NCBI GenBank assembly: GCA_016214845.1
Contig: JACRMS010000016.1
Location: forward strand, 146,488-210,487
From: Nitrospirota bacterium
GTDB taxonomy: Bacteria > Nitrospirota > Thermodesulfovibrionia > UBA6902
Reading direction: 5' to 3'
DNA length: 64,000 bases
The first letter of the stretch is position 1. Each line of letters starts with the position of its first letter. The notes beneath the pieces are model-generated. The model worked only from the letters and a program-made list of their open reading frames with translations, was not told the DNA's origin and did not search any database. Shown here in pieces: positions 3,627 through 7,823 of this stretch. The position numbers and the translations under genes were made by a program.

Positions 3627-3674
3627 CCCCTATCTTCAAATCTTCTTAACTTCTCAACCTCTATCTTTTTGAAT
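3627..3674. repeat. CTTCTCAAC-type repeat arm at hydrogenase protease 3' end
   Basis: A CT-rich word array (TCTTCTTAACTTCTCAACCT) related to the arms at 9537-9610 and inside bioA (26101-26172). The stop codon of the protease gene (3654-3656) lies within it, so the last residues of that protein come from the repeat. Confidence 0.55.
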
Positions 3675-4142
3675 TACTTCCACTCCCCACTCTTTTAATT
3701 TCAGGACAACTTTATTCACAAGGGCGCCCAACTGTTGCTGGATATCATCCGACAATTCGACGCTTGTCTCCATTGACTTCGGCTGTATCCCGATGAGGCA
3801 CATCTCAGGCGGCGTGATTCCCATCAGCCTCGCTGCAAAGAGTGTATCGGGCAGACCGATCTGGTGCACTGAGAGCTTATTTGAGATCAGAAACGCGGGG
3901 ATCTTGTCGCCCTCAACAGTATCTATTGTCCCCGGTTCTTTTTTGAAATTCGCCGCGTCAATTATCAGGACCTTGTCCCTGCCTTCAAACAATGGCAGGA
4001 GATCAAGCCCCTTTGTCCCCCCGTCTATCAACTCAACGGACTCCGGGAAGACGTAATCGTTCTTTAATTTATTCACCGCATGAACGCCCACGCCGTCGTC
4101 AGACAAAAGTATGTTGCCGATACCAAAGATTGCTATGTTCAA
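3654..4142 (-). CDS. [NiFe] hydrogenase maturation protease (HyaD/HybD family)
   Basis: A 162-residue protein with the family signature GIGNILLSDDGVGVHAV at the N-terminus (nickel-binding acidic residue in the DDG motif), the IIDAA aspartate region and the SVHQIGL histidine region expected of the HybD fold. The family removes the short C-terminal extension after the last His of the large subunit once Ni and Fe are inserted. The large subunit here has a 15-residue tail after H554, which would be its substrate. It lies downstream of hydrogenase small, large and cytochrome b genes but behind a strong terminator, so its expression may be reduced or come from its own promoter. It ends in TGA. Confidence 0.92.
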   Translation of the reverse strand: MNIAIFGIGNILLSDDGVGVHAVNKLKNDYVFPESVELIDGGTKGLDLLPLFEGRDKVLIIDAANFKKEPGTIDTVEGDKIPAFLISNKLSVHQIGLPDTLFAARLMGITPPEMCLIGIQPKSMETSVELSDDIQQQLGALVNKVVLKLKEWGVEVIQKDRG

Positions 4143-4322: not shown

Positions 4323-4982
4323 TTACTTCAAGTCTTTTTCAGATATAAACTTGTATCCGGTGAAGATAGAGCCCATCAGGCCGCTCTTCTCTCTGCTGTC
4401 AGAGAACCACGAGATGTAGACATGTATCATCGCGAAGGCGAGTATCACGTACATGAAGATGTGATGATACAGCCGGATGGTCGGCAGAAGCATTATGCCA
4501 GTAAGCCATCCTCCAAGGAGCGTCCAGATAGCGCCTGAATGGTTTACCGAATACATCGCGAAACCTGAAACGATCTCGAAGATAAATATTATAAACAGCA
4601 GGAGGTATGTCAACCCTCCAAGGGCTGAATGTCCGACATGGCAGCTTTTTTTGCTGATCAGCAGGTAGCACTTCAGGTCATCGATCATCCTGCCGATCTT
4701 CTCGCCTGTAAATGGAAGCCATTCGCTGATGCAGGCATACTTGTTCCCGGCAAGTGACCAGTAGAGCCTGATGATCACGCTCATCATGAAGGTGTAGGCT
4801 GCTATGAAGTGAATGAGCCTCATCCAGCCCATTATCCACTGTTTTGAAGAATAGGCGTGAATAAAGGGACTCCCGATGTAAAACCCTGTAACGGACAGGG
4901 TAAGGATGCAGAGAAAGTTGATCCAGTGGGTAAATCTTACGGGAAATTCCCATGCGTAGGTTTTCAATCTCGTATCGTTCAT
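4323..4982 (-). CDS. Hydrogenase b-type cytochrome subunit (HyaC-like)
   Basis: A 219-residue membrane protein with four predicted helices and histidines placed for two b hemes (RFTHWINFL, MRLIHFIAAYTF, LYHHIFMYVILAFAMIHVYISW). The family anchors group 1 hydrogenases to the outer face of the cytoplasmic membrane and passes electrons from H2 to the quinone pool. It starts 13 nt after the large-subunit stop, with a GGGGG ribosome site, and clearly belongs to the same transcript. A terminator follows at once. Confidence 0.93.
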   Translation of the reverse strand: MNDTRLKTYAWEFPVRFTHWINFLCILTLSVTGFYIGSPFIHAYSSKQWIMGWMRLIHFIAAYTFMMSVIIRLYWSLAGNKYACISEWLPFTGEKIGRMIDDLKCYLLISKKSCHVGHSALGGLTYLLLFIIFIFEIVSGFAMYSVNHSGAIWTLLGGWLTGIMLLPTIRLYHHIFMYVILAFAMIHVYISWFSDSREKSGLMGSIFTGYKFISEKDLK

Positions 4983-4995
4983 ATTTACCCCCTTT

Positions 4996-6705
4996 CTATT
5001 TTATCCTTATCCTTGTTACCTCTTTACCGTCAGGGTCCACCACGTGAACAGCGCACGCCATGCAGGGATCGAACGAGTGGATCGTCCTTAAAATTTCCAC
5101 AGGCTGTTCGATGTTGGCTACAGGAGTTCCTATCAGCGCTTCTTCGTAAGGGCCTCTCTGGTTGTTGGCGTCTCTTGGAGAGCCGTTCCATGTGCCGGGG
5201 ACTACGCACTGGTAGTTTGCGATCTTGCCGTCCTTGATGTTTATCCAGTGGCCGAGCGCGCCTCTCGGCGCTTCGTGCAGGCCGTATCCTCTTGCCTCTT
5301 TGGGCCATTCAGAGGGGTCCCACTTTTCACCGGCGTGGATCTTGTAGTCGCCCTTCTTCATGTTCGCTGCAAGCTGATCGAGCCATACGGGAATCTGCTC
5401 GGCAGTGACAAGCGTTTCAATCGCGCGTGCCGCAATGCGTCCGAGTGTTGAGAACAAAGCCGCAGGCCCGACTCCCAGTGTCTTCAGGACGAGGTTTACC
5501 ACTTCCTGCACCCTCTTGTGCCCTGACCCGTACGCAACAAGCATTCTTGAAAGAGGTCCGACCTCCATCGCCTTGTTGTCATAGCGGGGGGCTTTCAGCC
5601 ATGTGTATTTCGCGTCCGTATCAAGGTATTCATACGGAGGCTTCGGACCTGTGTATTTGTAGTTTGTCTCGCCTTCCCAGGGATGCTTTGACGTGCTGTC
5701 GCCGCCGGAATATTCATACCATGAATGAGTTACATATTCAGCAACCTTGGTATGGTCCACGGGATGCACCTTTGATATGTCCTTGTTGAGAATGATGCCG
5801 CGCGGCAGCCAGAGGTTGTCGGTATTACTTACCGTGTCATTCGGGAATTCACCATACGCGAGGAAATTGCCGACGCCTGCTCCGTGGCCTGCCCAATCTT
5901 TATAGAATGGGGCCACCGCAAGGACGTCAGGGATATACACCTTCTCGACAAAGTCCTTTGCGACCTTTGCAAGCCCTGAGATAAAGGCTATGCTTCCAGC
6001 GTTCAGGGCGTTCTGGCTGTTCGGGTCAACAGGGATGGACATGCCGCCGACAATGTATGTCTGCGCGTGAGGGTTCTTTGCGCCGAGCAGGGCCTGTATT
6101 TTTATTACATCACGCTGCCAGTCAAGCGCTTCAAGATAGTGGGCGACTGCCATGAGATTCGCTTCAGCAGGAAGTTTGTACGCCGGATGCCCCCAGTAAG
6201 CATTCGCAAAGGGGCCGAGCTGCCCGTTCTCTACAAAGGCCTTGAGTTTGTCCTGGATGCCCTTGAAATAATCCGCGCTTGATTTCGGCCAGTCCGAGAT
6301 TGCCTGCGCAAGCGCTGATGTCTTTGCTGGGTCGGCCTTTAATGCGCTTACAATATCCACCCAGTCAAGCGCGTGGAGATGATAAAAATGGATTACATGG
6401 TCCTGAACGTACTGAATGCCGGTTATAAGGTTCCTTATAAGACGCGCGTTGTCAGGGATTGTGATGCCTAATGCGTTTTCGACCGCTCTCACCGAGGCGG
6501 TTGCGTGAACCGTTGTTCAGACGCCTCATATGCGCTGGGTAAAGGCCCACGCGTCTCTGGGGTCTCTGCCTCTGAGAATGATCTCAATGCCCCTGAACAT
6601 GGTGCTTGAGCTCCACGCGTCAACAACCTTGCCGCCTTCAACCTTTGCCTCGATCCTGAGATGTCCTTCAATTCTTGTAATCGGGTCAATAACTAACTTT
6701 GCCAA
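4996..6705 (-). CDS. [NiFe] hydrogenase large subunit with two in-frame UGA (predicted Sec60, Sec63)
   Basis: Reading through two UGA codons gives 569 residues homologous throughout to group 1 hydrogenase large subunits. The N-terminus has DPITRIEGHLRIEAKVEGG and FTQRI-U-GV-U-TTVHATASVRAVENALG; UGA occupies both positions of the CxxC that should bind nickel. The C-terminus keeps DPCMACAVH (C548, C551, H554) plus a 15-residue tail for the maturation protease. The start chosen is TTG at 6705-6703 with GAGGTG 7 nt upstream; a TGA three codons further up closes the frame. The frame has no other stop or frameshift. A hairpin fitting a bacterial SECIS follows the second UGA. Taking the GTG at 6492 as start would lose 71 conserved residues. 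Role: H2 oxidation at the outer membrane face together with the small subunit. Selenocysteine at these two places is inference; the alternative is a double nonsense pseudogene. Confidence 0.88.
6482..6501 (-). promoter_or_regulatory. Candidate SECIS hairpin for the two UGA codons
   Basis: In mRNA sense ACCGC-CUC pairs with GAG-A-GCGGU: eight base pairs with one bulged A and a GGU apical loop. The loop begins 23 nt after the second UGA and 32 nt after the first. Published bacterial SECIS models expect a loop roughly 16-37 nt downstream with G in the first two loop positions, so one hairpin could serve both codons. An alternative stem CGGTT/AACCG (6498-6512) overlaps it and would compete. Confidence 0.6.
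6517..6528 (-). other. Two in-frame UGA codons in the RxCGxC motif (UGVU)
   Basis: UGA at 6528-6526 (codon 60) and at 6519-6517 (codon 63), separated by codons for Gly-Val. Flanking codons give Gln-Arg-Ile before and Thr-Thr-Val-His after, matching the family at every conserved position, so only the two cysteines are replaced. Confidence 0.9.
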
Positions 6706-6731: not shown

Positions 6732-7823
6732 CTATTTATCTTCTTTTTTGGGCGAGATTGCCCGTCCTATTCCGTGTATCACAAGGCCCGCCGCTGTTGC
6801 CGCGGCAAGTCCGGCGCCGACTTTATCAGCCGTGCTTTCGATGCTAACTCCGGGAACCTTCGGCAGTCTCCTGTAGAAGGGTGTCATGGTGTCCCAGAAG
6901 TTAGGCTCGGCGCAGCCGATGCAGCCGTGTCCTGCCTGAACAGGCCAGCTTGTGCCTTCATTGTATTTGATGGTGGGGCAGTTCTTAAATGTCTCAGGGC
7001 CCTTGCATCCCATTTCATATAAACACCAGCCCTGTCTGTGGCCCTCGTCTCCCCATTGCCTTACGAACTGCCCGGCGTCAAAGTGCGCCCTTCTCTCGCA
7101 ATTGTCGTGGATCCTTTTTCCGTAAGCGAAATAAGGCCTGCCGAGTTTATCAGTATTTGGGAGTGATCCGAACGTCAGGTAATGGACGATGCAGGCGGTA
7201 ATATTTTCAGCGTTTACCGGACAGCCCGGCAGGTTGATCACTGTCGCGCCCGGCACAGCCTCTTTTACACTTACCGCTCCTGTGGGATTCGGCAGCGCGG
7301 CAGGAATTCCTCCGTAAGCGGCGCATGTGCCTACTGCAATCGTTGCAAGCGCGTTGCCGCAAACCTCCCTTGCAATGTCAACAGCTGACCGGCCGCCTAT
7401 GCAGCAATAAACACCGCCGTCTTTCATGGGGATGGAGCCTTCCACAACAACAAGGTATTTGCCCTTCTGGTTTTTCACCACATCCATCAGCGACTTCTCC
7501 GCCTGCTTTCCCGCCGGCGCCATTATCGTCTCATGATAATCTACTGAGAGAATATCAAGGACAATGTCTCCGACTGTCGGCTTTGACGCCCTCAAAAGGG
7601 CCTCGGTATTGCCGCAGCAGTCCTGAAACTCAAGCCATACAAGATACGGCTTCTTGCCGCCCAGTGCTTCGGCGATCTTCGGGATGAACGAAGCGGGCAG
7701 TGCCAGTAATGCAGCCATCCCGGTGCAGAACTTCATGAAGTCTCTGCGGGACAAATCCTTATCGCCGAGAGCCCCCATTGATTCCGCTGCTTCCTGCAAT
7801 GGATCATCTGGAAACAACTTCAT
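6732..7823 (-). CDS. [NiFe] hydrogenase small subunit, Tat-exported
   Basis: A 363-residue protein starting at the ATG preceded by AGGAGGTGG; 40 further in-frame upstream codons lack a ribosome site. It has a twin-arginine signal (SRRDFMKF, residues 25-32), the iron-sulfur core and a C-terminal membrane helix (about 330-350). Cluster ligands seen: GTCAAYGG and LPGCPVN (proximal), HDNCERR with CLYEMGCKG (distal), NCPTIKYN with QAGHGCIGC (medial). The first proximal motif is DCCGNTEALL (C69, C70, N72) where CTGC is typical, so one proximal ligand is Asn and an extra Cys is adjacent. It is first in the operon, 26 nt from the large subunit. It carries electrons from the active site to cytochrome b. 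Confidence 0.95.
   Translation of the reverse strand: MKLFPDDPLQEAAESMGALGDKDLSRRDFMKFCTGMAALLALPASFIPKIAEALGGKKPYLVWLEFQDCCGNTEALLRASKPTVGDIVLDILSVDYHETIMAPAGKQAEKSLMDVVKNQKGKYLVVVEGSIPMKDGGVYCCIGGRSAVDIAREVCGNALATIAVGTCAAYGGIPAALPNPTGAVSVKEAVPGATVINLPGCPVNAENITACIVHYLTFGSLPNTDKLGRPYFAYGKRIHDNCERRAHFDAGQFVRQWGDEGHRQGWCLYEMGCKGPETFKNCPTIKYNEGTSWPVQAGHGCIGCAEPNFWDTMTPFYRRLPKVPGVSIESTADKVGAGLAAATAAGLVIHGIGRAISPKKEDK

Follow-up and report, generated by a model that had tools for sequence, protein, structure and literature searches.

Aspartate or asparagine in place of the fourth proximal-cluster cysteine in a clade of apparent group 1f-like [NiFe] hydrogenases

Judging from aligned sequences, the fourth cysteine ligand of the proximal iron-sulfur cluster is missing throughout a clade of [NiFe] hydrogenase small subunits from Nitrospirota, Desulfuromonadia (Geobacter relatives) and Chloroflexota. 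The proximal cluster of [NiFe] hydrogenases controls electron flow and the response to oxygen, and four cysteines (or six) at this cluster are the textbook rule for group 1. The member of the clade described here lies in the window, by which we mean the whole analyzed stretch of 64,000 nucleotides from a Nitrospirota bacterium. The best explanation overall, which we hold to be fairly probable, is that this enzyme is a group 1f-like uptake hydrogenase in which Asp or Asn took the place of Cys72 in a single event, that three cysteines bind its proximal [4Fe-4S] cluster, and that the selenocysteine (Sec) of the large subunit is an independent trait. The relevant features of the window are the following.

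6732..7823, minus strand: NiFe hydrogenase small subunit, 363 aa (translation; TIGR00391, E=6e-134)
7608..7622, minus strand: proximal-cluster motif D68-C69-C70-G71-N72, reading CCGN where the canonical form is CTGC (read from the sequence)
7614..7616, minus strand: C70 (TGC), aligned with the usual Thr18 (phmmer)
7608..7610, minus strand: N72 (AAT), aligned with the fourth proximal-cluster Cys, which is Cys20 in Desulfovibrio numbering (phmmer)
4996..6705, minus strand: NiFe hydrogenase large subunit, TTG start, two in-frame TGA, 569 aa if TGA is Sec (PF00374, E=9.3e-241)
6517..6528, minus strand: UGVU, the N-terminal Ni-binding motif RxCGxC, with TGA at 6526-6528 and 6517-6519 (translation, relatives)
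4323..4982, minus strand: cytochrome b subunit (PF01292, Ni_hydr_CYTB)
3654..4142, minus strand: hydrogenase maturation protease (PF01750, HycI)

By its profile match, its Tat signal and its medial and distal ligands, all of which fit, the small subunit is assigned to [NiFe] hydrogenase group 1. It scored 446.8 bits against TIGR00391 (HydA; cut-off 179.5), carries a Tat signal (S25-R26-R27-D-F; Tat model TIGR01409, E=1.5e-4) and has a hydrophobic C-terminal helix at about residues 329-356, as placed by a low-confidence AlphaFold model. The motif, in its wider context WLEF-Q67-D68-C69-C70-G71-N72-T73-E74, was paired by phmmer without gaps with ECTGCSE of Desulfovibrio vulgaris 1h2a and with ECTGCTE of E. 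coli Hyd-2 6ehq. In Desulfovibrio numbering, C69 (codon 7617-7619) is equivalent to Cys17, the first ligand, C70 to Thr18, G71 (7611-7613) to Gly19 and N72 to Cys20. The initial annotation had read an Asn at the fourth proximal Cys and an extra neighboring Cys; translation and alignment both bear this out, and its coordinates for the motif (7610-7630) were correct to within two bases. The proximal ligands C69, C167 and C201 are retained and the fourth is N72, so the four-Cys set is incomplete. The remaining cluster ligands are intact (H239, C242, C267, C273; C282, C301, C304).

The occurrence of this change was surveyed in 169 pairs of small and large subunits, both motifs of a pair being taken from the same locus. 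The pairs came from Nitrospirota loci, from the best 80 of at least 577 relatives found when 84,980 species were scanned with the small-subunit alignment, and from genomes around the Trichlorobacter and Chloroflexota loci. Within this set UGVU large subunits were paired with CAGD (44), CAGN (19), CCGN (10), CTGD (2), CAGC (2) and CTGC (1). Large subunits with CGVC accompanied CAGN (23), CTGD (20), CAGD (7) and CCGD (3), and those with CGVU accompanied CTGD (5), CCGD (1) and CAGC (1); the remaining pairs were canonical CxGC or showed minor variants. With the motif columns removed, a quick maximum-likelihood tree (LG+G4), whose fine branching is uncertain, placed all Asp/Asn72 sequences in one clade of 137 (SH-aLRT 98), which corresponds to a single change on the tree. 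The sister of this clade is a small CAGC set with UGVU or CGVU, made up of one Anaerolineae locus and two loci from the Chloroflexota-centered search, outside which lie CxGC sequences with CGVC from other Nitrospirota. Position 72 is Asp or Asn throughout the clade and Cys in none of the 137 sequences, and the other proximal, medial and distal Cys ligands are invariant in 137/137. Asp or Asn occupies position 72 in many genera and the other ligands are intact, so CCGN does not stem from a sequencing error or a shifted frame. Another departure at this cluster was seen in five Nitrospirota relatives (L107, L109-L112), which have Asp at the first proximal position (D-[TS]-G-C) and all-Cys large subunits.

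The order small subunit, large subunit, cytochrome b, protease runs in the window from 7823 down to 3654 and recurs in many of the D/N-type relatives. It is the order HyoS-L-E-protease described for group 1f (Hya/Hyo) (PMC6896113), a poorly studied and polyphyletic group for which a role in oxidative stress defence was proposed in Geobacter sulfurreducens (PMC6896113). Our best reading of the enzyme is therefore a respiratory uptake hydrogenase that appears group-1f-like, an assignment that rests on gene order and on clade partners in Geobacteraceae rather than on HydDB references. With its small and large subunits, cytochrome b and protease it would be a membrane-bound, periplasmic and probably quinone-linked uptake enzyme.

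The cluster type, its ligation, its potential and its physiological role are given here as we infer them. The proximal [4Fe-4S] cluster would be held by C69, C167 and C201, and its fourth iron would have as ligand either a side-chain oxygen from Asp72/Asn72 or solvent that this residue holds in place. Such an altered fourth ligand would shift the potential of the cluster and make the fourth iron exchangeable. Within the D/N72 clade we counted about 15 swaps between Asp and Asn (16 D/N/C changes on the tree, one of them to or from Cys). Because the residue is always Asp or Asn in spite of these swaps, an oxygen-bearing side chain seems to be kept at position 72 and not to drift freely; because the two interchange freely, a carboxylate is not obligatory there. 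The free exchange also means that the fourth iron site may be open or that the cluster may be [3Fe-4S]. A precedent for Asp replacing one proximal-cluster Cys is Asp60 of FrhG (PMC3591093); the group 1h enzyme HofK is a further candidate for such a precedent.

The main rival, unlikely in our estimate yet a serious contender, is a three-Cys [3Fe-4S] proximal cluster in which Asp/Asn72 would be a hydrogen-bonding partner and not a ligand. The roughly 15 Asp/Asn changes suggest that a charged ligand is not needed, and the medial cluster is already of the three-Cys type, with C282, C301 and C304 conserved. However, site-open [4Fe-4S] clusters with three cysteines are also common in biology, and sequence does not separate the two.

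The exact CCGN spelling has a narrower distribution than the loss of Cys72. The pattern DCCG[ND] was searched in 396 genomes from Nitrospirota and 244 from the class that contains Trichlorobacter. CCGN was found in 10 of the former, with UGVU in 10/10, and in none of the latter, which instead gave three CCGD motifs with all-Cys large subunits. The initial annotation had suggested checking whether CCGN co-occurs with UGA in the large subunit; this held for CCGN itself, but CCGD occurs with CGVC (L212/L172, L227, L228). The opposite combination that it had considered, CCGN being common beside ordinary Cys large subunits, was not seen in the 396 and 244 genomes. The tree shows 10 changes of Cys70, and the spelling is young and labile, because the near relatives of the window's small subunit (83-88% identical) read CAGD or CAGN. 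We regard C70 as a replacement of Thr18 that arises occasionally and is probably not a ligand. In Desulfovibrio hydrogenases the Thr18 site lies beside the glutamate through which the large subunit's proton path runs, and the window's large subunit has this Glu (RIEGH).

A ligand swap, in which C70 would stand in for the lost Cys72 as fourth thiolate and leave a four-Cys [4Fe-4S] cluster, is quite improbable. It draws on the UGVU set, where Cys70 occurs only with Asn72 (10 CCGN, no CCGD) and Ala70 with both residues (44 CAGD, 19 CAGN). However, the paired test of Cys70 against Asn72 was not significant, with too few contrasts (8 pairs; 1.6 the same way and 0.8 the other way), and CCGD exists elsewhere (L172/L212, L227, L228, L174), which means that Cys70 does not depend on Asn. 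CAGN, with no thiol at position 70 or 72, is common (42 sequences: 19 with UGVU and 23 with CGVC), and a swap is therefore not needed. Two adjacent cysteines would also be unlikely to span two corners of one cubane in this loop.

Cys155 (7359-7361, minus strand) could likewise be read as a compensating proximal ligand, being present in 93% of the D/N72 clade and 7% of the Cys72 type, a pattern shared by Thr161. This association amounts to essentially one independent contrast on the tree. In the low-confidence AlphaFold model of the small subunit (mean pLDDT 51.9; residues 68-72 below 50), which has a helix at 147-156 and a strand at 160-164, Cys155 is placed at the distant end of the C167-bearing strand. 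We rejected it as a replacement ligand, as it precedes C167 by 12 residues and a whole beta-strand and depends on that one contrast.

In the large subunit the N-terminal motif reads RI-U-GV-U-T and the C-terminal motif DPCMAC. The UxxU active site that had been proposed for it was confirmed, both TGA codons falling in the N-terminal motif. Exactly two TGA codons in an otherwise open large-subunit frame were found in dozens of relatives among the 396 Nitrospirota genomes searched, and UGVU aligns to C-G-V-C in other relatives. The window's genome encodes selA, selB and tRNA-Sec on one contig, at most 12 kb apart (G000:C14 22587-34314). With UGA kept across relatives, Cys aligned to it elsewhere and the Sec machinery encoded, the selenoprotein assignment looks real. 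By homology, one Sec of UGVU would be a terminal and the other a bridging ligand of the Ni-Fe site. A hairpin with the loop [C/G]GUGA lies about 20-35 nt past the second UGA in many sequences, its pair counts being not clearly above those of shuffles and subject to coding constraint; an Rfam scan of the window at the gathering threshold gave no matches. In the open-access literature we found UxxU reported for no [NiFe] large subunit, and a 2026 review gives the Sec of hydrogenase alpha subunits as UxxC only (PMC13188914).

UGVU is widespread in Thermodesulfovibrionia-type Nitrospirota. In a separate Hyb-type lineage (L091, L093, L096-L106), with large subunits that share about 50-54% identity with the window's, UGA stands at the second position alone (CGVU) and the small subunits read CTGC; another of its members, L095, combines UGVU with a canonical CTGC small subunit. 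As this lineage also bears UGA, N-terminal Sec is not confined to a single lineage. In one locus (L019, genome G122) the small and large subunits share one frame with no TAA or TAG between them; the small subunit thus appears to stop at a TGA, the triplet that also forms the large subunit's Sec codons in this frame.

The initial annotation had implied a coupling of the altered cluster to the UxxU site, and pairing by itself favors such a link: CCGN occurs with UGVU in every case, and Asp/Asn72 is found in 75 of the 78 UGVU sequences of the final set. That the two form one co-evolved adaptation is nonetheless very improbable, since shared ancestry accounts for the pairing. UGVU status changes 9 times on the tree and Asp/Asn72 arose once, residue 72 being the constant side in 9/9 independent contrasts, so that no co-change was observed. 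Asp/Asn72 also accompanies an all-Cys CGVC partner in 56 sequences, commonly in Desulfuromonadia (Geobacteraceae) and Chloroflexota (CAGD with CGVC in Oryzomonas japonica, for instance, and CAGN with CGVC in Pelotalea chapellei), and UGVU accompanies CxGC in three (L095, L164, L230). Two Nitrospirota loci (L058 and L060) have no UGA in the large subunit and retain Asp72. The traits are therefore nested by ancestry and not coupled, and linkage of either CCGN or Asp/Asn72 with UGA was rejected by the tree contrasts. Sec in the large subunit would then be independent of the cluster change, with many gains or losses against the D/N72 background. More speculatively, and in our judgment rather unlikely, this may be a lineage that joins a Ni-Fe site with two N-terminal Sec residues, one terminal and one bridging, to a three-Cys proximal cluster, with Cys70 in the CCGN members acting as a switchable extra thiol.

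An oxygen-tolerant variant of the [4Fe-3S] type that uses the extra Cys is hardly credible: the first motif does contain an extra Cys, but the supernumerary positions Cys19 and Cys120 are Gly71 and Gly172 in the window's small subunit, loci of the true type (L088-L090) read CTCC plus GSCASWGC, and three residues ahead of the first active-site residue the large subunit carries Gln in place of Glu (FTQRI; position assigned in the present analysis), which is the oxygen-sensitive pattern (PMC4747160). The likeness to oxygen-tolerant enzymes that had been drawn earlier does not hold, their extra cysteines being at 19 and 120 and the one here at 18.

The clade provides a natural series (CTGD, CAGD, CAGN, CCGN and CCGD, with the sister CxGC) for learning how potential and reversibility depend on the fourth ligand. 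Because one cluster motif can occur both with and without Sec, the two effects can be measured separately. In the open-access literature we found no account of these enzymes lacking a proximal Cys. The clade-wide loss is a real and apparently undescribed variation, a search of mainly open-access papers being weak evidence of novelty.

Among known systems, group 1f (Hya of Geobacter sulfurreducens, HyoSLE) shares the gene order and anaerobic respiratory hosts. Geobacteraceae relatives fall inside the D/N72 clade, G. sulfurreducens Hya itself being outside the sampled set; in the Geobacteraceae members found, the large subunits are all-Cys (CGVC), unlike the window's UGVU. FrhG, the F420-reducing enzyme of group 3a, resembles the clade in having Asp for one proximal Cys, which may be at another of the four positions; its small-subunit family is distant, and it has Asp60 whereas the window has Asn. 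HysA [NiFeSe] hydrogenases of Desulfovibrio and Desulfomicrobium also use Sec as a Ni ligand in the large subunit. However, their Sec is in the C-terminal motif (UxxC), while the window's enzyme has UGA at both N-terminal residues and DPCMAC, not DPUxxC, at the C-terminus. Their small subunits gave only distant matches to the window's, and by its sequence this enzyme is not a classical NiFeSe hydrogenase. MBH and Hyd-1 (group 1d, Cys6[4Fe-3S]) share the group 1 architecture and an extra Cys in the first motif, but in the window's enzyme that Cys is elsewhere, the second extra Cys is absent and the fourth canonical Cys is missing.
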